Origin: Candidatus Schekmanbacteria bacterium
GTDB taxonomy: Bacteria > Schekmanbacteria > GWA2-38-11 > J061
Length of the DNA stretch: 64,000 nucleotides
NCBI GenBank assembly: GCA_016219965.1
Contig: JACRJM010000007.1
Span: forward strand, 452,473-516,472
Reading direction: 5' to 3'
Shown here piece by piece: positions 47,547 through 57,234 of the stretch. How positions within the stretch are numbered: position 1 is the first letter of the stretch; every line of letters begins with the position of its first letter. The notes below the pieces were generated by a model. The model searched no databases, was not told the origin of the DNA, and saw only the letters and a program-made list of their open reading frames with translations. Both the position numbers and the translations under genes were made by a program.

Positions 47547-47915
47547 TTAGGTCCGAAGCGGCAAAATGCGGATTCTTGATTTATGCTTGTCTATTGAAAT
47601 AAGCGCACCCATTTCAAGAACTGATTCATATTGTTTTAATATTTTAACTGTCTCTATTCCTGAATTCCTGGGCAAAACATCCTGCGTACGAACTTGAACT
47701 ACACTTGGTCCTTCAGCATTAGTTGCGGCAAGAAGTACTCCAAAGTCAAGGTCATGTGTGAAAACGACATAACCGTTATTACGCGCCCACTCCATTATTA
47801 TCCTGTCAGACGCACGAAGATCTCCCACAGATGACCAATGAATTGCATCCAGTCCCTGTTGCTTAAATACATTAACCCAGTCAGGTGTTAGATTTACATC
47901 AATGAGTATTTTCAT
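47547..47915 (-). CDS. DUF5615 PIN-like toxin
   Basis: A 122-aa protein with a PIN-like nuclease layout: MKILIDVNLTPDWVNVFKQQ with the first acidic residue, WSSVGDLRASDRIIMEWARN, VVFTHDLDFGVLLAAT with the second acidic cluster, and a C-terminal RIRILPL. DUF5615 proteins pair with DUF433 antitoxins and are presumed RNases. It overlaps the antitoxin gene upstream as ATGA, so they form one operon. Confidence 0.87.
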   Translation of the reverse strand: MKILIDVNLTPDWVNVFKQQGLDAIHWSSVGDLRASDRIIMEWARNNGYVVFTHDLDFGVLLAATNAEGPSVVQVRTQDVLPRNSGIETVKILKQYESVLEMGALISIDKHKSRIRILPLRT

Positions 47916-48142
47916 GAATTAATCAGAGGCAATTCAATTTCCTCAGAGCGCCACGCAGCATACGCAAGCGCTTCGCGGATATCTTCTTCTTCCAGGTATG
48001 GATATGCCTGCAAGATATCAGTATTGGAATAACCTTCAGCAACAAGACCAACAATAGTACCGACTGTAACACGCAAGCCCCGAATGCATGGCTTGCCGCC
48101 CATTACATCAGGGGCAAAGGTGATTCTTTTCAGATTCTTCAT
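47912..48142 (-). CDS. DUF433 antitoxin
   Basis: A 76-aa HTH-like protein: ITFAPDVMGGKPCIRGLRVT, VGTIVGLVAEGYSNTDILQA and YPYLEEEDIREALAYAAWRS are the DUF433 hallmarks. It is the presumed antitoxin for the overlapping DUF5615 gene. A GGAGG-like site (AAGGAGG) lies before its ATG. The 252 bases upstream, to the TPR/CSD gene, are A+T-rich and show no feature I can name. Confidence 0.88.
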   Translation of the reverse strand: MKNLKRITFAPDVMGGKPCIRGLRVTVGTIVGLVAEGYSNTDILQAYPYLEEEDIREALAYAAWRSEEIELPLINS

Positions 48143-48394
48143 AACAGACCTCCTTTTTTTTCTAAAGCTGATGCAACTACTTAAAATAATACTTATTTAT
48201 TTTAATATTATTTGCCATAGTTAGCAACAATCTCTGCTAATTCGTGGAGATTAGGCCAGTTTCCTTTTTTTACAGATTAACAGCTTGTCAGCGCACATAA
48301 ACTTTTTTAAAAATTACTTCATACTCTATTTCTGAAGCATTTTTCCTAATTTTTTAGTTCGACCTATCATTTTCTTCACATATAAATATTATCT

Positions 48395-49687
48395 TCAAGC
48401 AGGGATAATGTTTATAGCTTCTTCAGATTCTTTTTTCTTAGCTTTGTCATATGATTGTTGAACATTGAATGTAACTTTTATTTCTTCCATTAATTTAGCT
48501 TTATTCCCATTAAAGGAAATAACGCGGAAATAATAATCCTTACCATCAATTGACTTTATGAAACCGGCTTTTCCGTTTGGTAGCAATTTTTTAATTTTCC
48601 CCTCCTTTTTAGGAAGTTGATCAGATTTGTTCTTTTCCCAGAACTTCTTAAGTTCACCTAATAAATGTTTATACTCTACATTGACAGGCAATGTAATAGA
48701 TAACTCCCTTAAATGGTTTGTCAGCTGTTGTGGAATTTTCCATCCGTGTTGTTCTCTTAATTTATATGCTAATAGGGCATGTTTCTTTGATAATTCTAAC
48801 TGGTTAATTTGTTGAAGTATTAACGAACAAAAATAGTACACCTCCCAAGTATTTTCAGGTTTTTGACTTCGCAATGATGATATACAGGCTTCTATAATAT
48901 AACTAAGAGCATTCTCATGATCTTTTAATTCAAAATAAAAACAAGCTATGTCTCTATAAATAAACCATTCTCTTTTTTCTCTAGCAATTAACTTTAGGGA
49001 CTCAATAGCATGGATGCGATTACCCAATTGTCCTTCACAAATAGCTCTGCGCCTTTTTAACCAAGCATCGTCAGGGAAATCCTTCAACGCCATATTACAA
49101 ATCTCTAAACACTTCTTAAAATCTTCAAGTTTTTCATATGCTTTTGATGTTTTAGAATACCATGATTGTAACTTAGAGGGGATTTCAATATTTTTCTTAT
49201 TTAAAGAAGTAATAAAAGCTTCTTTAGAAAGGGATTTAAATTCCACTTTTTCAGACCATAATATTACCTCTTGCCACATGCCTTTATCAGCACAAAAATC
49301 CATTATTTTAAAAACTGATAGCTGACGGAAAATATTTTCGAGTTCGGATTCAGTATGCAAAATAACTTCTTGAACATAATCTTTTACTGCACTGTAATTA
49401 ATGTCATCATCGAGATTCTTTAAATGTAAATAGTAAATAGCACGTACATATTCTAATTTTATTAGCTTGAATTCAGGATCAATTCTCTTGACTTCTTTAC
49501 ATACATTTAAAGCTTCATTATGTTTCTGAACTTTATTTAAGCAAAATGCTAAACTCCATCCATCCCATTTATCTTTTTTTTCTTTTGTTTTACCCCACAC
49601 AACCATGAGCGATTCTATGGCTTCCTGGTAATTTTTTTCTTTCCTAAGTTTAGAAGCTTTTTCTCTGATTGACTTTAAGTCAGTCAT
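48395..49687 (-). CDS. TPR protein with C-terminal cold-shock-like domain
   Basis: A 430-aa cytoplasmic protein. Residues 1-350 are helical repeats, several TPR-like (NYQEAIESLMVVWGKTKEKK, KKCLEICNMALKDFPDDAWL, HENALSYIIEACISSL). The last ~70 residues look like a cold-shock/S1-type nucleic-acid-binding fold: KIKKLLPNGKAGFIKSIDGK, DYYFRVISFNG and VTFNVQQSYDKAKKKESEEA followed by AINI. A TPR scaffold carrying a CSD suggests an RNA- or ssDNA-binding partner. It overlaps the helicase stop as ATGA, so the two are made together. Codon and base use are more A+T-rich than in the flanking genes. Confidence 0.75.
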   Translation of the reverse strand: MTDLKSIREKASKLRKEKNYQEAIESLMVVWGKTKEKKDKWDGWSLAFCLNKVQKHNEALNVCKEVKRIDPEFKLIKLEYVRAIYYLHLKNLDDDINYSAVKDYVQEVILHTESELENIFRQLSVFKIMDFCADKGMWQEVILWSEKVEFKSLSKEAFITSLNKKNIEIPSKLQSWYSKTSKAYEKLEDFKKCLEICNMALKDFPDDAWLKRRRAICEGQLGNRIHAIESLKLIAREKREWFIYRDIACFYFELKDHENALSYIIEACISSLRSQKPENTWEVYYFCSLILQQINQLELSKKHALLAYKLREQHGWKIPQQLTNHLRELSITLPVNVEYKHLLGELKKFWEKNKSDQLPKKEGKIKKLLPNGKAGFIKSIDGKDYYFRVISFNGNKAKLMEEIKVTFNVQQSYDKAKKKESEEAINIIPA

Positions 49688-51822
49688 AGCAAATTAATGA
49701 GCTCCTGAATTAAAATAGCTGAGTTGCTAAATTGTTCTTGTGGATGGCATTTAACAAACCTTCCTTGTTCATTATAGTAGAAATTGAGCTGAGCAACTTC
49801 ATTATTTCTTATAAAAATATACTTTTCTAAATATAGGTTGTGTTCGATTTTGGAAATTGTAATTATTGTCCCGGATATCTTTGTAAGAATGTCATTATAA
49901 AATTCTTTTAAATGGGGTTTATTTTCTGGGAATGTAATTTCATTACTGAAGTACTTTTCTTGATAATCTAATATAATTTTACCACATAATTTCTGTAAAG
50001 AGTTTAAAATATCATCTATATTGCCATCTGAGTTAATAACTTGAATATTAGTTATTTTGTTTTTTGAATATATTACATCTACTGTTAATGAGCCTAAGGG
50101 AGATTCTATTTCATATCTTTCTCGATAGTTAAAATGTTTGATGTTTTTTATAGTTGTGTCAGAGTTCATTTCATTTCTAACCATATGATAACAATCCTGT
50201 TGTAACTCATTTCCAAATTTAACTTCTTGTGCTTGGGTTATTTTATCATTAACAATCGTTTGGTTTTTACTCAATGAAAGCTTCATTACTAGTTCTGCAG
50301 GAATGATTTTTAAATAATCAGAGGGGCCTACATTAGGATTGTTCAATACATAGAGAAGTTTCTTGCTTCGTGTAAGCGCAGTATAACACCATCTGAAATA
50401 CTCTTCATTAAATTTGGCATTTGAAGTTTGGAAATCTACTATCGTAGTATTCCATTCACCACCTTGTGCTTTGTGACAAGTTACCGCATAGCCATATTTA
50501 AGCTGAATGGAATTAAAATAAAGATCCATTTTTATAGCCTCTTTAAATTCTGGGGTTCCTGCTTTTAAATTTGGATTACGTAATTTAAAAAGTATATAAA
50601 GAGCTCTTGTCTCATCATTGGTTAGAGTTGGCTCTTTTGAATTAAGTGGGGTTTCTATTATTTTGCAGTTGATTTCAAACAACTCTCCATTTATGTCTGG
50701 AACTTCTATGGTAATATCTCTAAAAGATAGTGTGACAGTTATATTGTCTGTCTTTTTTTTAAGGGTTAAAGGTATTTTCTCAGTCTCTGAATTAATTCTT
50801 TTTACTCTTCCGAATTCACCATTTAATACCTTATACTTATAATTATTACGTATAATTAAAACTTTATCATTTTCTTGAATTTCATCTTTTCCCGGAAAAA
50901 AATGATTCCTTACTAGTTCATTAAGATGATGTACACTTTTATTGGAGTAGGCAATTATAATAATGTCGTTTGTATTGCTATTTGCTGTTGCTTTAATGTA
51001 CGCACTTAATAAGTCTTCATGCTTAATTGGTATAATGTCATTTAGATTTTCATCTATATTTATTTTATTAAATTTCTTGGTTTGAATATTGTCTCTGATT
51101 TTTGTGGCGTTCTTAAGTATGCCACTGTCTTTATCTTGCCTTGCTACATCAGTCATCTCGCATTCTTCAATCGTAAGTCCAAAGGACAGGTTAGACAGAT
51201 AGATGGAATCAATCGCTGGAGATAATTTCATATTAACAGGTGGTAATTGTGCAGAATCTCCAACAAAGATGATCTTGCGATTAAGTTTAGGGTTATTGAA
51301 ATCTATATAATTCAAAAGATCATTAAGCAGAAACCCACTTCCGAACCTGATAAACTCTGTATCTGAATATTGGTTTGATATCATTGAAGCTTCATCAACG
51401 ATATAAATTGCATTAGCAGGATCATCATTATTTTTAAGCCCAAAGAAATAGCGAAAAGTCTCTGAGCCATCTTGGCCAGTTTCTTTGTATTCCAGCAGGT
51501 TATCATTTGAATAAATTGATTTATGAATAGTACTAGCATCCCACTTTGTTTTTTCTTGAATAACTGAAGCTGCTCTCCCGGTTGGAGCCATTAGTTTAAA
51601 TGTTTGTTTTTGGTTTGAGAGATATGAACTTATTCCGCAGAGAAGAGTTGTTTTGCCAGTGCCAGCAAACCCTTTAAGTAAAAAACATTTTTTGTCATTA
51701 TTTAGAAAGTTGTGAAGTTTCTTTACAGCGTCAATTTGCGATAAGGTTAAAGGGAAATTAAATATTGAGCTTATATAAGATGTCAAATTTGAATTATTTT
51801 TTGGCTCATTTCCAATATTCAC
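49684..51822 (-). CDS. RecD-like superfamily 1 helicase
   Basis: A 712-aa SF1 helicase of the RecD/TraA type. Motif I is KGFAGTGKTTLLCGI (51-64), Ia is APTGRAASVI, II is YIVDEASMI, III is FVGDSAQLPPV, V is YAVTCHKAQGGEW and VI is YTALTRSKKLLYV; all are intact. The ~200 C-terminal residues after motif VI are unrecognised. It may unwind DNA or RNA:DNA ends with the TPR/CSD protein encoded next. It starts 165 bases after the 337-aa gene and may have its own promoter or continue the same transcript. A+T-rich. Confidence 0.88.
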   Translation of the reverse strand: MNIGNEPKNNSNLTSYISSIFNFPLTLSQIDAVKKLHNFLNNDKKCFLLKGFAGTGKTTLLCGISSYLSNQKQTFKLMAPTGRAASVIQEKTKWDASTIHKSIYSNDNLLEYKETGQDGSETFRYFFGLKNNDDPANAIYIVDEASMISNQYSDTEFIRFGSGFLLNDLLNYIDFNNPKLNRKIIFVGDSAQLPPVNMKLSPAIDSIYLSNLSFGLTIEECEMTDVARQDKDSGILKNATKIRDNIQTKKFNKINIDENLNDIIPIKHEDLLSAYIKATANSNTNDIIIIAYSNKSVHHLNELVRNHFFPGKDEIQENDKVLIIRNNYKYKVLNGEFGRVKRINSETEKIPLTLKKKTDNITVTLSFRDITIEVPDINGELFEINCKIIETPLNSKEPTLTNDETRALYILFKLRNPNLKAGTPEFKEAIKMDLYFNSIQLKYGYAVTCHKAQGGEWNTTIVDFQTSNAKFNEEYFRWCYTALTRSKKLLYVLNNPNVGPSDYLKIIPAELVMKLSLSKNQTIVNDKITQAQEVKFGNELQQDCYHMVRNEMNSDTTIKNIKHFNYRERYEIESPLGSLTVDVIYSKNKITNIQVINSDGNIDDILNSLQKLCGKIILDYQEKYFSNEITFPENKPHLKEFYNDILTKISGTIITISKIEHNLYLEKYIFIRNNEVAQLNFYYNEQGRFVKCHPQEQFSNSAILIQELINLL

Positions 51823-51987
51823 TTATCTTACCTTTGTTAATCTAATATTAAGAACATTATTTATTAGCAGGTCATCAATTAGGGTTATTTTTTCAGTAAC
51901 TATTTCACTCAATCAAGTGGATAGCTTTATTATATCTCTATGTAGAACACATTAATTGTTCCAGATGGACTAAAATATTTAATTGGC

Positions 51988-53001
51988 TTATTTTTCTATA
52001 CTTGCTTCATCTAACTTCTGGCATTCCTTAAGATGCTCAAAACAACCATTATCTATTTTAATAATATTTCGTTTAATTGTTTCCCCATCCGGCATAAAAA
52101 GATCAAATCCTCTATCAAATAAAACTACAGCAGGTTGTGCCTCTAAATGGCGTGCATGAAATATTCCACTTTTATCTTCCTTAACCAATAATTTAATCTT
52201 CCATTTAAACTTTTCTTGTAATGGCTTTATTAATTCCTTCATAACTTTATTATACGCTTCTTGATTCGAATTCTTTTTTTCGCTTTGTTTGCTGGCAGGT
52301 TCATCATCATAAATTATTTCTTTTTGGCAAGTTATGACTTCTACTTCCAGATCATTTTGAACAGCAAAATATCCATTCGTGAGCCACAAGTTCAATATAA
52401 AATCAATTCCCTTTCGAAAATGGCTTGTATTTTTACCTCGACCTATTTGCTTATCATAGAAGCGCAGATATTTCGCAAAACGAATTGAACGAGTAATTAT
52501 TTCCGCCAGTTTTTTCTTATCTAATTGGTCAATAGGGGGGACATCTTCCATTAGCCAACGGCGATTTTCTTCAAACTCGCTGTAAATATAACCATTTAAT
52601 GTCATAGTTTTAAAATCCGGATTCTTCTTTTGGATCTCCTCTCTGTCCATTTCACTTAATATGAGGGAATCAGTGTTACAAATAGAATTAACATTGTACG
52701 CTAAGTTCAACAGATTATTTTTTTTAAAACTTTCTAATCCCTTATCATTACAGTTAACAAAATGTTTGCGTTTATTTTTCAGGAGTTCTTCCATTAATAT
52801 ATTTATTTTTGTTTTATACTTTATAGGGAGTGTTTTAATTTCACTTATTAAATTATCCTTTAAGAATCCATCTGGATCAACTATAAGAAGCCCATTGCTT
52901 CTAATACCCCTTAAAAACATTTCAGCATTTTCTCGATAACCAGGTAAGTCATAATTATCTTTGCAAAATGCAGAGGGAGCAACAACTGCTGTCATGAGCA
53001 T
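51988..53001 (-). CDS. Unrecognised protein, possible PLD-like effector
   Basis: I do not recognise this 337-aa protein. No signal peptide or membrane helix. Near the C-terminus FHARHLEAQPAVVLFDRGFD and an upstream KWKIKLLVKEDKSG strand, after GIDFILNLWLTNGYFAV and LEVEVITCQ, resemble the second half of phospholipase-D-like folds (HxR before a strand and Gly-Asp), but the full HxKxxxxD motif is absent. GAGGAA precedes its ATG, 12 bases after the DUF3696 ATPase gene, so it is co-transcribed with it. By position it is the likely effector or partner of that ATPase. Confidence 0.55.
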   Translation of the reverse strand: MLMTAVVAPSAFCKDNYDLPGYRENAEMFLRGIRSNGLLIVDPDGFLKDNLISEIKTLPIKYKTKINILMEELLKNKRKHFVNCNDKGLESFKKNNLLNLAYNVNSICNTDSLILSEMDREEIQKKNPDFKTMTLNGYIYSEFEENRRWLMEDVPPIDQLDKKKLAEIITRSIRFAKYLRFYDKQIGRGKNTSHFRKGIDFILNLWLTNGYFAVQNDLEVEVITCQKEIIYDDEPASKQSEKKNSNQEAYNKVMKELIKPLQEKFKWKIKLLVKEDKSGIFHARHLEAQPAVVLFDRGFDLFMPDGETIKRNIIKIDNGCFEHLKECQKLDEASIEK

Positions 53002-53013
53002 ATCTGCATTCCT

Positions 53014-54636
53014 CTAAGAAATCTCATCCATCCGTTCCGGGAAAAAGCCATCAGGCCATTCATCAATAAAATCACCTTCCTCATCAATGTGCAATCGCTG
53101 CGCTTTGGAACCATCATTTTCCTTACTTATATAAATTATAGATACATCATCAGGCTTGAGAACTTTTTGACGTATTAATTTTTGTAATCTCAAAATAAGA
53201 TGTTCACTGTGAGTTTCAACAATGAATTGATTTTTTTCTTTTATGCAGTGAGCCAAGAAAGTTCCTATCTCAGCCTGTAAACGAGGATGGAGATGTAATT
53301 CAGGTTGTTCAATTAGAATTAAATTATTTGTTGATAAAACTCCCTGAACTATTATTGGGAGCAACTGACTTATACCAAAACCAACATCTGTTGGACTAAC
53401 TTTTATATTATTTATTTTATCAATTAAATTTATACAAAATAAATTTCTAAAATTTTGATCTTTTGAAATATTTGCAGACAGATTGTAGGCTATCTCAAAT
53501 TTTTCTAACCATTTATTAACTTTCCTAGATATTCTTTTATCATTAAGTAAAATTGTCGGTGTAAACTCACCAATTTTCCCCACACCAGACGGAAACTCTC
53601 CAGAATACTTGTACTGTCTTTCAAGGACCTGCCTGACAGGACCAAGATAAATTATTTTATTTAATTTTTCTCCTAATGTTTTTCCCACTCGCCATGCTAT
53701 CTTTCCAATCCCATTGTCTTCTGTTTGCTCTATCCCTATATCCTTACTATAGGCATCAGCAGCATCACCAATAATTTCAAATACATCATCTGTTGAATAT
53801 TTATCCCAGCATGGAAGAAAATGATATGCCAACAATGCTGTGTTGTTTAAATTTAAACTTAAATCATTCAAAAAATCATCAAATGAATATTTAGTAATTT
53901 TAACTAAAATGTTACATATTTCTTTTTTTCTTTTGGACAATTCAGCATAGGATTTTCTGTCATTTTTTTTACTATTTTTAAGCAAATAATTTAATTTATT
54001 TAATTCTCTATTCAAGTCTTTTAACTTTTTCTTTATTTTACTCTTAAATTCATTCCAGTTTCTTTCTATCAGTGGATGTTTATCGTTTAAATACTTGAGT
54101 CTTAAAAAAGAGTTATATTCACCAAATAAGTTATAAAAAACTGCATCGTTTAATTCCTTATCACTATCAACATGACTCATGCGGTATGAACCTAATATCA
54201 TATTAGCAACAGAGAATGAGTAATCTTCTAATTCTATTTTTTTTGACTTAGAAAAAATAAATGAAAATTTGCAATCTGCAATCAGATTATTCTCTTCATC
54301 ACAAAAACTTGACATATCCTCATTTTCAAAAAAACTAAGTCCAAAATTAAAATCATGATCTGTACTTATTTTGAATCCAATGGACAGGCGCTTATTAATA
54401 TCATGGTTATTAATAAATTGATAATAATCATCAATATCTATTATTTCCCCAACAGGCTTTAACGCTTCATCATAGTTTTTATTATCATCTACAGTCTGTT
54501 TTAAAAGCAATAAAGACTGCAACACTGACGTTTTTCCTGAACTGTTTGGACCAAATAAAAGAGTGATTGGTCTTATTGGAATCCTCTGTTCTTTCCCAAA
54601 AGCTTTAAAATTTTCAATTCGTAACTCTGTTAACAT
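53014..54636 (-). CDS. AAA family ATPase with DUF3696-type C-terminus (RecF/OLD-like)
   Basis: The ATG at 54636, with AGGGAGA upstream and downstream of the sigma54 promoter, gives 540 aa starting MLTELRIENFKAFGKEQRIP; the frame extends 144 bases further upstream but that part has no homology-like content. ABC-type ATPase motifs: Walker A FGPNSSGKTS (28-37), a signature-like VGFGISQLLPII, Walker B NLILIEQPELHLHP and the H-loop ETHSEHL. A long charged, coiled-coil-like insertion lies around residues 190-260. The C-terminal EEGDFIDEWPDGFFPERMDE is typical of DUF3696. Such ATPases partner with effectors in several defence systems. Confidence 0.88.
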   Translation of the reverse strand: MLTELRIENFKAFGKEQRIPIRPITLLFGPNSSGKTSVLQSLLLLKQTVDDNKNYDEALKPVGEIIDIDDYYQFINNHDINKRLSIGFKISTDHDFNFGLSFFENEDMSSFCDEENNLIADCKFSFIFSKSKKIELEDYSFSVANMILGSYRMSHVDSDKELNDAVFYNLFGEYNSFLRLKYLNDKHPLIERNWNEFKSKIKKKLKDLNRELNKLNYLLKNSKKNDRKSYAELSKRKKEICNILVKITKYSFDDFLNDLSLNLNNTALLAYHFLPCWDKYSTDDVFEIIGDAADAYSKDIGIEQTEDNGIGKIAWRVGKTLGEKLNKIIYLGPVRQVLERQYKYSGEFPSGVGKIGEFTPTILLNDKRISRKVNKWLEKFEIAYNLSANISKDQNFRNLFCINLIDKINNIKVSPTDVGFGISQLLPIIVQGVLSTNNLILIEQPELHLHPRLQAEIGTFLAHCIKEKNQFIVETHSEHLILRLQKLIRQKVLKPDDVSIIYISKENDGSKAQRLHIDEEGDFIDEWPDGFFPERMDEIS

Positions 54637-54685
54637 TATATTTTCTCCCTTATACTTATTACCATTCCCGTCTGTGATCTTTATA

Positions 54686-54702
54686 TTGCAATACACATGC
54701 CA
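54686..54702 (-). promoter_or_regulatory. sigma54 (-24/-12) promoter of the ATPase operon
   Basis: On the minus strand, TGGCATGTGTATTGCAA matches the sigma54 consensus TGGCACG-N4-TTGCW with one change. The GG and GC doublets are exactly 10 bases apart. Transcription would start near 54677, about 40 bases before the ATPase ATG. It lies 139 bases downstream of the CARF-sigma54 activator gene. An imperfect dyad GGTTTAATGTAACC (54805-54818), about 120 bases upstream of the -12, is a candidate activator site. Confidence 0.8.
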
Positions 54703-54840
54703 AGTAGACTGATTCAAGTAACCTGTTAAAAAACAATTAGTTCCCGTAGCCGTAAAAAAGAAAAGCTTTTTTAGCATCAACCAAAGTTTAAATTCTTCAA
54801 CTCAGGTTTAATGTAACCACCTTATTAAAATAAATTAACT

Positions 54841-56364
54841 TCATAACTGGTTTTTTGCTTTCACAAACTTGCTTACTGCCTGAGGTGAAACACCTAAAAG
54901 CCTTGCCGCTTCACTGCAACGACCTCCTGCCTTTTCTAATGCTTTTGCAAAAAAATAATTTCGGATATCTGATAGCGTGTTATCCAGTAGAAATCCGGGA
55001 TAAGGTTCAGGCAAACTTTCAAAATATTTGTCACCCTTCTTTGATTGGCTCGGTTTCAAATCCTGAGGAACTATAAGCCTATCCTTAGAAATTAAGACTG
55101 CCCTATGTACAACATTCTTCAATTCACGAGTATTCCCCGGCCAATCCTGACATTGAAGAAACGCAAGAGCTTCTGGTGAAAATGACTTAGGAACTTTTAA
55201 GCCCTGATTAAATTGATCTAAGAAATAAAGTGAAAGCAATGGAATATCAGACCTTCTCTCACGAAGAGATGGTAGTTTTATTTCACCGACATTTAATCTG
55301 AAATACAAATCTTCCCTGAACTTCTTTTCTGAAATGGCTGAGTTTATATCACAGTTTGTCGCAGCAATGATTCGCACATCAACCTTATGGCTGTTATTGC
55401 TTCCCAAAGGTTCCACAATCCCATCCTGCAATACACGGAGAAGTTTTCCCTGAACTTCAAAGTTCAGTTCAGCAAGTTCATCGAGAAAAAGCGTACCGCC
55501 GTCTGCAACATCAAATTTTCCGGCTTGATCCTGCAATGCACCGGTAAACGCCCCTTTTTTGTGACCAAATAGGAAGCTTTCCGCAAGTTGCTTTGGGATT
55601 GCCGCGCAATTTACAGCAACGAAAGGATCTTTTTTTCTGCTGCTAAACCTATAAATAAGATTTGCTACAACTTCTTTTCCAGTTCCTGATTCGCCAAGAA
55701 GCAAAATAGGAATATCTGGTTCTGCTAATATAACTGAGGTTTCAATAGCTGAGATAAATGTAGGATGTTTGCCAATAATACCTTCTCTAGCCATTATATA
55801 AGAAAGTTTGTTTTCCTTCTCGTCAGGGCTCTGATGTATGACAAGCTCAGTGAGCTTTTTAGGCTGTATATCTGGAAATTCAGAGAGTGTTATATCTACT
55901 TCAGTTACTAATGGAGTTTCATCCGTAGCAAAACGTTTAGGTTTGATGTTTAATATTGTTGCCGAAATCTCTCCGCTCGCTGTCAATAAAAGCCAGCATG
56001 CGTGCATCTGCGGTGTCCCTGATGCAATCGCAATATAATATTTTGTATCAGTTGTATTGCTGTTTATTTCATTAAATATTATGCGAAGCCCTGTTAATAT
56101 CTGAGAGTAATCAGTAGGATCAAAAACGTTCAAATGTTTGGTGAGTGTTTCAATTCCCTTAAATCTTTCTTTTATCGCTTCATTAGTCTTCTTAGTAATT
56201 TCTATAGTTTTTGGAGTTGAAATAAGAATAACCCGGTCAAATTTTTTTTCTCTGAGAAGTGATAAAATCGGTCCCTCTTCTTCCTGCCCATCTATTAAGC
56301 CAGGAGAATATGGATCATGGAATCCGGTAAAAGTTAGAAGAATATTAGAAAAGGCTGTTACCAT
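54841..56364 (-). CDS. CARF-domain sigma54-dependent activator, RtcR-like
   Basis: A 507-aa enhancer-binding protein in three parts. Residues 1-165 are an RtcR/CARF-type sensor: [40 protein letters not shown] and [20 protein letters not shown], matching RtcR's DPWDFEEVY and HITTGTHVAQICWFLL blocks. The AAA+ domain has Walker A GESGTGKE (224-231), the sigma54-contacting GAFTGA (271-276) and Walker B TLFLDE. A Fis-type HTH ends it ([20 protein letters not shown]). CARF domains bind cyclic oligonucleotides or RNA ends. A matching sigma54 promoter lies just downstream, before the ATPase gene. Confidence 0.9.
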
Positions 56365-56526: not shown

Positions 56527-57234
56527 ATGGAAACATTAAAGGATATACACTCTATAGCAATAGCGGAGCTTAAAAAAAAGTTCACTCTTAACCCTGTAAG
56601 CCTCACTCATCCATTCCCAGAAAGACCGACGAAAATATTATTCAAGCCATTGATCAAGATGGATGGCAATATTTTCAGCGCAGAAAAGTTCACGCGCATC
56701 ACATTCTTGCGGATAAATCTTCCGGTTTACATGTGTGTGCGTTCCACCTTCCTTCGCCCCCGCATAGAGCTTGACCTTCCGGTAATGTCGGCTGAATGCG
56801 TTATCATGGGTGGAAAGAGGATGTTCATGGTTGATGTCCACAGGACAGGGGAAGGAGAAAGACCCGGGGACAAGGAATTCTTTGACAGGCTCGTAAAGAT
56901 AAGGGACAAATATCCGGATCTCCTTAAAAACAAGACCAGGACCGGCGGCGACCAGATACAGACTGTTTTTTCAAGAGCTGTATGCCAGGCAAAGATCACA
57001 TCTGCTCAGGATGGTGAAGCCTTAAAATTGTTCCGGGAATATCTAGGCGAATTCTGCGAACTCGCTAAAAGCACAAAGCCTCTCGCCGGATCATCTCTGG
57101 AAGAAGCAAACAATAAATATGCGGACTATCTGAAAACCGTTGTCGACCACGACCCGGGAGTCAAAGGCTACAAGATGTTCTTCGGAGAGGAAGGGGGCGT
57201 GCAACGTTCAATGGAGATGTTTTTTAATTCGTAA
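56527..57234 (+). CDS. Conserved protein resembling ferredoxin-dependent bilin reductases (tentative)
   Basis: A 235-aa cytoplasmic protein not assigned with confidence. TRITFLRINLPVYMCVRSTF, IELDLPVMSAECVIMGGK and MFMVDVHRTG (residues about 55-115) recall the antiparallel sheet and the DLP-x-F-G-x-D-L core of PcyA/PebA-type bilin reductases and red chlorophyll catabolite reductase. It parallels the 5878 protein in length and in this core. The C-terminus (YKMFFGEEGGVQRSMEMFFN) resembles a helix near the bilin pocket. GAGGAGGAAC gives a strong ribosome site. It is divergent from the CARF regulator and not part of the island by strand or base composition. Confidence 0.4.
   Translation: METLKDIHSIAIAELKKKFTLNPVSLTHPFPERPTKILFKPLIKMDGNIFSAEKFTRITFLRINLPVYMCVRSTFLRPRIELDLPVMSAECVIMGGKRMFMVDVHRTGEGERPGDKEFFDRLVKIRDKYPDLLKNKTRTGGDQIQTVFSRAVCQAKITSAQDGEALKLFREYLGEFCELAKSTKPLAGSSLEEANNKYADYLKTVVDHDPGVKGYKMFFGEEGGVQRSMEMFFNS

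Follow-up and report, generated by a model that had tools for sequence, protein, structure and literature searches.

What does a regulator of the RtcR type control where its neighbours are not the RNA repair genes rtcA and rtcB? The question is raised by a locus of Candidatus Schekmanbacteria bacterium, in a 64,000-nucleotide stretch of contig JACRJM010000007.1 (the window, always meant at its full length), where the gene for a sigma54 activator with an N-terminal CARF domain is followed by genes for a DUF3696 ATPase and a 337-amino acid (aa) protein. Sequence comparison lends good support to regulation of this gene pair by the regulator, and we consider it likely that the locus is a signal-gated defence module, with a CARF-sigma54 switch set over an ATPase-effector operon.

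The regulator, its probable target genes and the sites between them

The three genes form a row on the minus strand, with a gap of 204 nucleotides (nt) between regulator and ATPase (Table 1), and all three reading frames are open. The genome (98% complete) encodes sigma54 (rpoN) and contains a single RtcR/CARF (PF06956) gene and a single DUF3696 gene, and the two adjoin. The regulator matches the Pfam families RtcR (CARF, PF06956; 41 bits, above cut-off), Sigma54_activat (218 bits) and HTH_8, with CARF motifs at residues 9 and 115, Walker A at 224, GAFTGA at 271 and a Fis-type helix-turn-helix (HTH) at about 485. With its Walker and GAFTGA motifs kept, the AAA+ part is predicted to be a complete sigma54-interacting domain, and the combination of N-terminal CARF, GAFTGA-bearing AAA+ and Fis-type HTH places the protein among the CARF-AAA+-HTH sigma54 activators of the RtcR superfamily. 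The full-length match to the PADLOC model RtcR_PspF2 (425 bits) is unspecific, as ordinary sigma54 activators reach ~400 bits through the AAA+ domain; the CARF part alone still gives a significant 59 bits. The model was rejected as a genome probe on the same grounds, and only matches spanning the CARF part were used. The score against the NCBIfam RtcR model is 327 bits, below the cut-off of 650.

Table 1. Features of the locus, in window positions
Feature	Position	Strand	Basis or remark
CARF-AAA+-Fis sigma54 activator, 507 aa, RtcR_PspF2-like	54841..56364	-	Pfam and PADLOC matches, motifs
UAS 1, palindrome TTAAACCTGAGTTGAA	54796..54811	-	tandem palindromes at same place in homologous loci
UAS 2, palindrome TTAAACTTTGGTTGAT	54776..54791	-	20 nt from UAS 1; tandem palindromes in homologous loci
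sigma54 -24/-12 promoter TGGCATGTGTATTGCA	54687..54702	-	51 nt before ATPase start codon; conserved position
DUF3696 ABC/SMC/OLD-type ATPase, 540 aa, NsnB-like (Menshen)	53014..54636	-	Pfam AAA_15 and DUF3696, over cut-off
Effector candidate, 337 aa, remote member of phospholipase D-fold family, HxR motif HARHLEAQ at residue 282	51988..53001	-	profile match

Homologous loci were collected by the CARF domain of the regulator only (two CARF peptide patterns), so that their gene neighbours and DNA sites are unselected; conservation of the CARF motifs, by contrast, is partly built in by this choice. A loose sigma54 core pattern matches the window twice where 1.3 matches are expected, so the match between regulator and ATPase would be weak taken alone. 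Its score, however, exceeds all 100 shuffles of the same region, and it is raised above chance by its position and its conservation: of 56 loci, 43 have a TGGCAY-N5-TTGC-like element no more than 240 nt past the regulator stop codon, for the most part at a distance of 95-119 nt. When the loci are anchored on this element, two palindromes of the form TTcAACCnnGGTTgAA, about 21 nt apart, begin near the regulator stop. This double palindrome, a candidate pair of upstream activating sequences (UAS), is present in 29 of the 57 loci, where shuffles gave an expectation of 0.5, and the window carries both copies. The stretches between the UAS and promoter elements are largely unconserved, which argues for constraint on the elements rather than mere relatedness of the loci. 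The target genes thus appear, from sequence and conservation, to have a sigma54 promoter with upstream enhancer-like sites. Two further matches to the UAS-promoter pattern in the same genome were without the double palindrome and were taken as chance. The layout differs at L104, a type III CRISPR locus: there the regulator runs into cas10, and it is ahead of the regulator that the best match to the promoter was seen.

The mechanically called open reading frame of the ATPase opens at TTG 54780, an extension that crosses the promoter; the ATG at 54636, behind AGGGAG, is the likely start. The preliminary description had read from the letters an RtcR-type CARF-AAA+-Fis activator directly upstream of, and on the same strand as, a DUF3696 ATPase and an unrecognised 337-aa protein, with a sigma54 promoter in between, and each of these points is borne out.

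The same pairing recurs among the 61 loci with a recognisable regulator, which are spread over many phyla (363 kb searched downstream, 355 kb upstream). A DUF3696 ATPase is encoded downstream in 17 (in 16 of these its gene shares the strand of the regulator; two AAA_15 matches at 30 bits were excluded), a relative of the partner protein in 10, and HsdR of type I restriction-modification (R-M) in 34; upstream, none of the three was found.

The ATPase and its partner

The ATPase has its Walker A motif (GPNSSGKTS) at residue 29 and its Walker B region (LILIEQPELHLHP) at residue 439. Among PADLOC models it matches NsnB of Menshen (214 bits), PDC-M55A (194 bits) and HEC-03B (166 bits), and it thereby resembles the ATPase subunits of Menshen and of two PADLOC candidate systems, PDC-M55 and HEC-03. 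Unlike in the latter two, the second gene of the window is unrecognised by any PADLOC model. The 337-aa protein had no family match in Pfam or NCBIfam either, and no matches among PDB sequences, plasmids or viral contigs. The likeness to the Menshen pair NsnB-NsnC may extend to the partner, since the NsnC model gives a weak match (E 0.045) to the HxR region of one effector relative, and an HDRYL motif is present in two NsnC-profile matches elsewhere, which suggests that the two pairs share a plan. The window differs from Menshen in its added sigma54 regulator, and no NsnA/DUF262 or NsnC match was found among the scanned neighbours. In Rhodococcus, Aeromonas and Azotobacter plasmids (L006, L007, L008), the gene after the DUF3696 ATPase codes for a protein of ~170 aa and the next for one of the RNA ligase family, a recurring three-gene cassette of another kind.

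The proteins encoded behind the DUF3696 ATPases of the regulator loci form one unnamed family, in which an Asp, the HxR motif and a GxD motif are invariant or nearly so. Against the family profile the window protein scores 27.6 (E 0.004), aligned over the HxR region; the highest score of 200 shuffles was 23.5 and that of the 45 other window proteins 21.8. The DUF3696 partners of Planococcus and Lacticaseibacillus showed no relation to the family and served as negative controls. An AlphaFold2 model of one family member (L085, predicted local distance difference test (pLDDT) 85) has a phospholipase D (PLD) fold in its C-terminal half (residues 128-295), and on this model the family belongs to the PLD fold. 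In structure it comes closest to MITD1 (Z 11.2) and next to PLDs and nucleases at Z 8-11; phosphatidylserine synthase, SauUSI, Streptomyces PLD, NucT, Nuc, BfiI and the NgoAVII R protein are among the matches.

Several observations speak against the window protein being an active effector of this family. It is very remote from the other members (~15% identity; hhalign E 0.004, probability 8%), its motif reads HARHLEAQ and thus lacks the Asp of HxRxxxxD, and its own structure model is poor (pLDDT 59), the top Foldseek matches of this weak model being phospholipases D at E 0.013. The closest fold to the family, MITD1, is to our knowledge not an enzyme. The partner may accordingly be an adaptor like MITD1, with the ATPase as the active part. 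In line with an adaptor, the HxKxxxxD catalytic motif was not found, its Lys being replaced by Arg throughout the family, with HxRxxxxD in most members. On the other hand, the nuclease PLD folds (Nuc, NucT, SauUSI, BfiI, NgoAVII R protein) come close to MITD1 in score, and an alignment of 11 family sequences shows the His, the Arg and an upstream Asp without exception. We regard the adaptor as quite possible, if somewhat short of probable. The PLD-fold partners of DUF3696 ATPases make up an effector family that goes unrecognised by the models of Pfam and PADLOC.

The short arrangement and the wider cargo

The commonest gene order is regulator, HsdR, HsdM, HsdS, ATPase, partner (L057, L070, L072, L085 and L086), which also occurs in G027 and on a Vibrio coralliilyticus plasmid. 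With or without the R-M genes, the order from regulator to ATPase to effector spans Deltaproteobacteria, Betaproteobacteria, Gammaproteobacteria and others. The direct order of the window, free of R-M genes, is rarer than the R-M one and is shared by L079 (Syntrophus) and L060 (a Deltaproteobacterium). The ATPase-partner cassette also exists apart from the CARF-sigma54 regulator, in Methylocella, where a WYL protein stands ahead of the R-M genes.

This distribution allows the locus to be seen as a remnant, in which the regulator formerly served a type I R-M system with a terminal ATPase-effector cassette, the R-M genes were lost and what is left is perhaps decaying. R-M is indeed the commonest cargo and the cassette usually lies behind HsdS; the effector of the window has diverged from the rest of its family, the ATPase frame of L060 is split, and in L097 both regulator and ATPase are fragments. 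In the window itself, however, none of the three frames is broken, and the regulator and ATPase motifs, the UAS and the promoter are all in place. On the regulator tree the direct form requires at least three separate changes, in different phyla, so that it seems to have been reached repeatedly and the short form looks viable. We judge it unlikely that the locus is the remnant of a larger superoperon.

The signal-gated module that we favour gains from the remaining cargo of the regulator family. Members stand directly ahead of type III-A CRISPR genes (L044/L104, L045 and L107), in the form of cas10-csm or cas6-cas1-csm6-cas2-cas10, and judged by their predicted products the targets of the family are overwhelmingly defence genes. 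The preliminary description had taken the target for defence-type rather than RNA repair and had proposed a search of genomes for the regulator-DUF3696 pairing; the pairing proved to be conserved, together with the enhancer-promoter layout, and the R-M, ATPase-effector, type III CRISPR and Card1-like nuclease cargo agrees with its choice. Its interpretation is thus largely supported, the signal and the anti-phage activity being what we infer, and it is genomic context that suggests the latter.

Further cargo of the same regulator family comprises a Card1-like nuclease and kinase (L087:6364-8118), a VWA protein with an FtsK/HerA ATPase (L066:2008-7546), a reverse transcriptase (L050:7968-10677), a protein kinase (L075:18075-20140) and a pPIWI-associated nuclease (L061:18045-19157).

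CARF domains are known mainly as switches of enzymes. A broader reading, which we put forward tentatively as almost evenly balanced, is a widespread form of transcription-licensed immunity, where one CARF-sigma54 family with a fixed enhancer-promoter cassette would convert an oligonucleotide alarm into expression of interchangeable defence cargo (type I R-M, DUF3696 ATPase with PLD-fold effector, type III CRISPR, Card1), the window being the minimal form.

Signal, mechanism and known systems

The ligand of the regulator is probably an RNA-derived oligonucleotide, either a cyclic oligoadenylate or a damaged-RNA end. Against PADLOC models, the CARF part alone scores 49-64 bits (CARF_HEPN of the Csm6/Csx1 type 64, RtcR 49) and thus resembles the two types about equally; its strand-4 motif reads SGTPQMH, where a rtcB-linked RtcR has TGSHVAQ. 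A search of viral contigs with the CARF alignment gave no matches. No Cas10 over cut-off was found in the genome (sub-threshold matches only, one with a PAS-like N-terminus by eye), nor a SMODS CD-NTase, so that the genome yielded no local source of cyclic oligoadenylate, which counts against the signal-gated module. At the type III-A CRISPR loci (L104, L045, L107) and the Card1-like locus (L087), oligoadenylate would be at hand.

A response to RNA damage would dispense with such a source: like RtcR, the regulator would respond to the ends of broken tRNA, and repair or stress survival would be the role of the operon, any anti-phage action being incidental. RtcR responds to tRNA fragments with a cyclic phosphate (PMC7790460), oligoadenylates fail to activate the RtcR of E. 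coli (PMC9650030), and the genome has no oligoadenylate synthase that we could find. The cargo across loci, however, is R-M, CRISPR and ATPase-effector genes rather than RNA repair, and the CARF part is nearer or equal to the Csm6/Csx1 type (64 vs 49 bits; SGTP vs TGSH). The only rtcB of the genome sits in an archease-like operon, with no UAS or sigma54 site found at it, and its regulation in trans by the regulator was rejected on that ground. This explanation seems to us improbable, somewhat more so than the remnant reading. That regulator and ATPase pair are chance neighbours is scarcely credible, for although defence islands mix genes and the R-M-free arrangement is the rarer one, DUF3696 lies downstream in 17 loci and upstream in none, promoter and double UAS fall exactly within the gap, and L079 and L060 repeat the direct order.

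In the signal-gated defence module, the regulator would bind the palindromic enhancer pair that closely follows its gene, its AAA+ motor staying idle as long as the CARF domain is without a ligand; infection or stress would give rise to that ligand. The ligand-bound regulator would then oligomerise and open the sigma54 promoter about 75-110 nt downstream, and the otherwise silent ATPase-effector operon would be expressed only while the alarm is on. The DUF3696 ATPase may act as a second gate, recognising invading DNA or a phage product and controlling its partner, the PLD-fold effector, which may act on nucleic acid. If so, a CARF signal is converted into sigma54-dependent transcription of defence genes, and this also in a genome that yielded no oligoadenylate synthase, which makes the ligand question directly testable. 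The conserved UAS and promoter can serve as a reporter as they stand, and as a pattern by which to look for more defence operons.

That CARF-sigma54 regulators control defence genes is a known prediction: a link of RtcR-like CARF regulators to R-M was pointed out in 2014 (Makarova, PMC4012209), and the presence of RtcR-like regulators at CoCoNuT superoperons in 2024 (Bell, PMC11090510). The window regulator shares with theirs the CARF-AAA+-HTH architecture, a place at the 5' end of defence (super)operons and on their strand, and, across its family, the type I R-M cargo; it differs in directly preceding a DUF3696 ATPase and a PLD-fold partner, without R-M or CoCoNuT genes. No description of the double UAS with promoter was found in the available parts of the two papers, and none of a DUF3696-PLD pair under a CARF-sigma54 regulator, or of a double UAS, in the literature searched. 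New, on the sequence evidence, are the conserved cis-elements, the effector family and the apparent direct control of an ATPase-effector pair without restriction genes. With the RtcR of rtcBA the regulator has domain order, sigma54 mode and CARF homology in common, but it has no linked rtcA or rtcB target, and the promoter is found downstream of the regulator gene, in the same orientation. The likeness to the Csm6/Csx1-type CARF effectors of type III CRISPR is confined to the CARF part, the predicted output being transcription rather than RNase activity.

The locus lies in a stretch that holds further candidate defence genes and whose low GC content (~30% at about 48000-55000, against 41% across the window) suggests a horizontally acquired island; the phylum is represented by 4 genomes only. 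A RecD-like helicase with a TBP-TOTE domain (PADLOC PDC-M16A, 734 bits) and a TPR-cold-shock protein form a candidate defence pair at 48395-51822 (minus strand), which begins 165 nt past the effector on the same strand and is possibly co-transcribed with its operon; relatives of this pair were not found among 67 regulator loci. The island is adjoined at 47547-47915 by a gene for a 122-aa protein that by eye resembles a DUF5615 PIN-like toxin, and the regulator by an opposite-strand gene at 56527-57234 that matches ferredoxin-dependent bilin reductase (Pfam, 45 bits).

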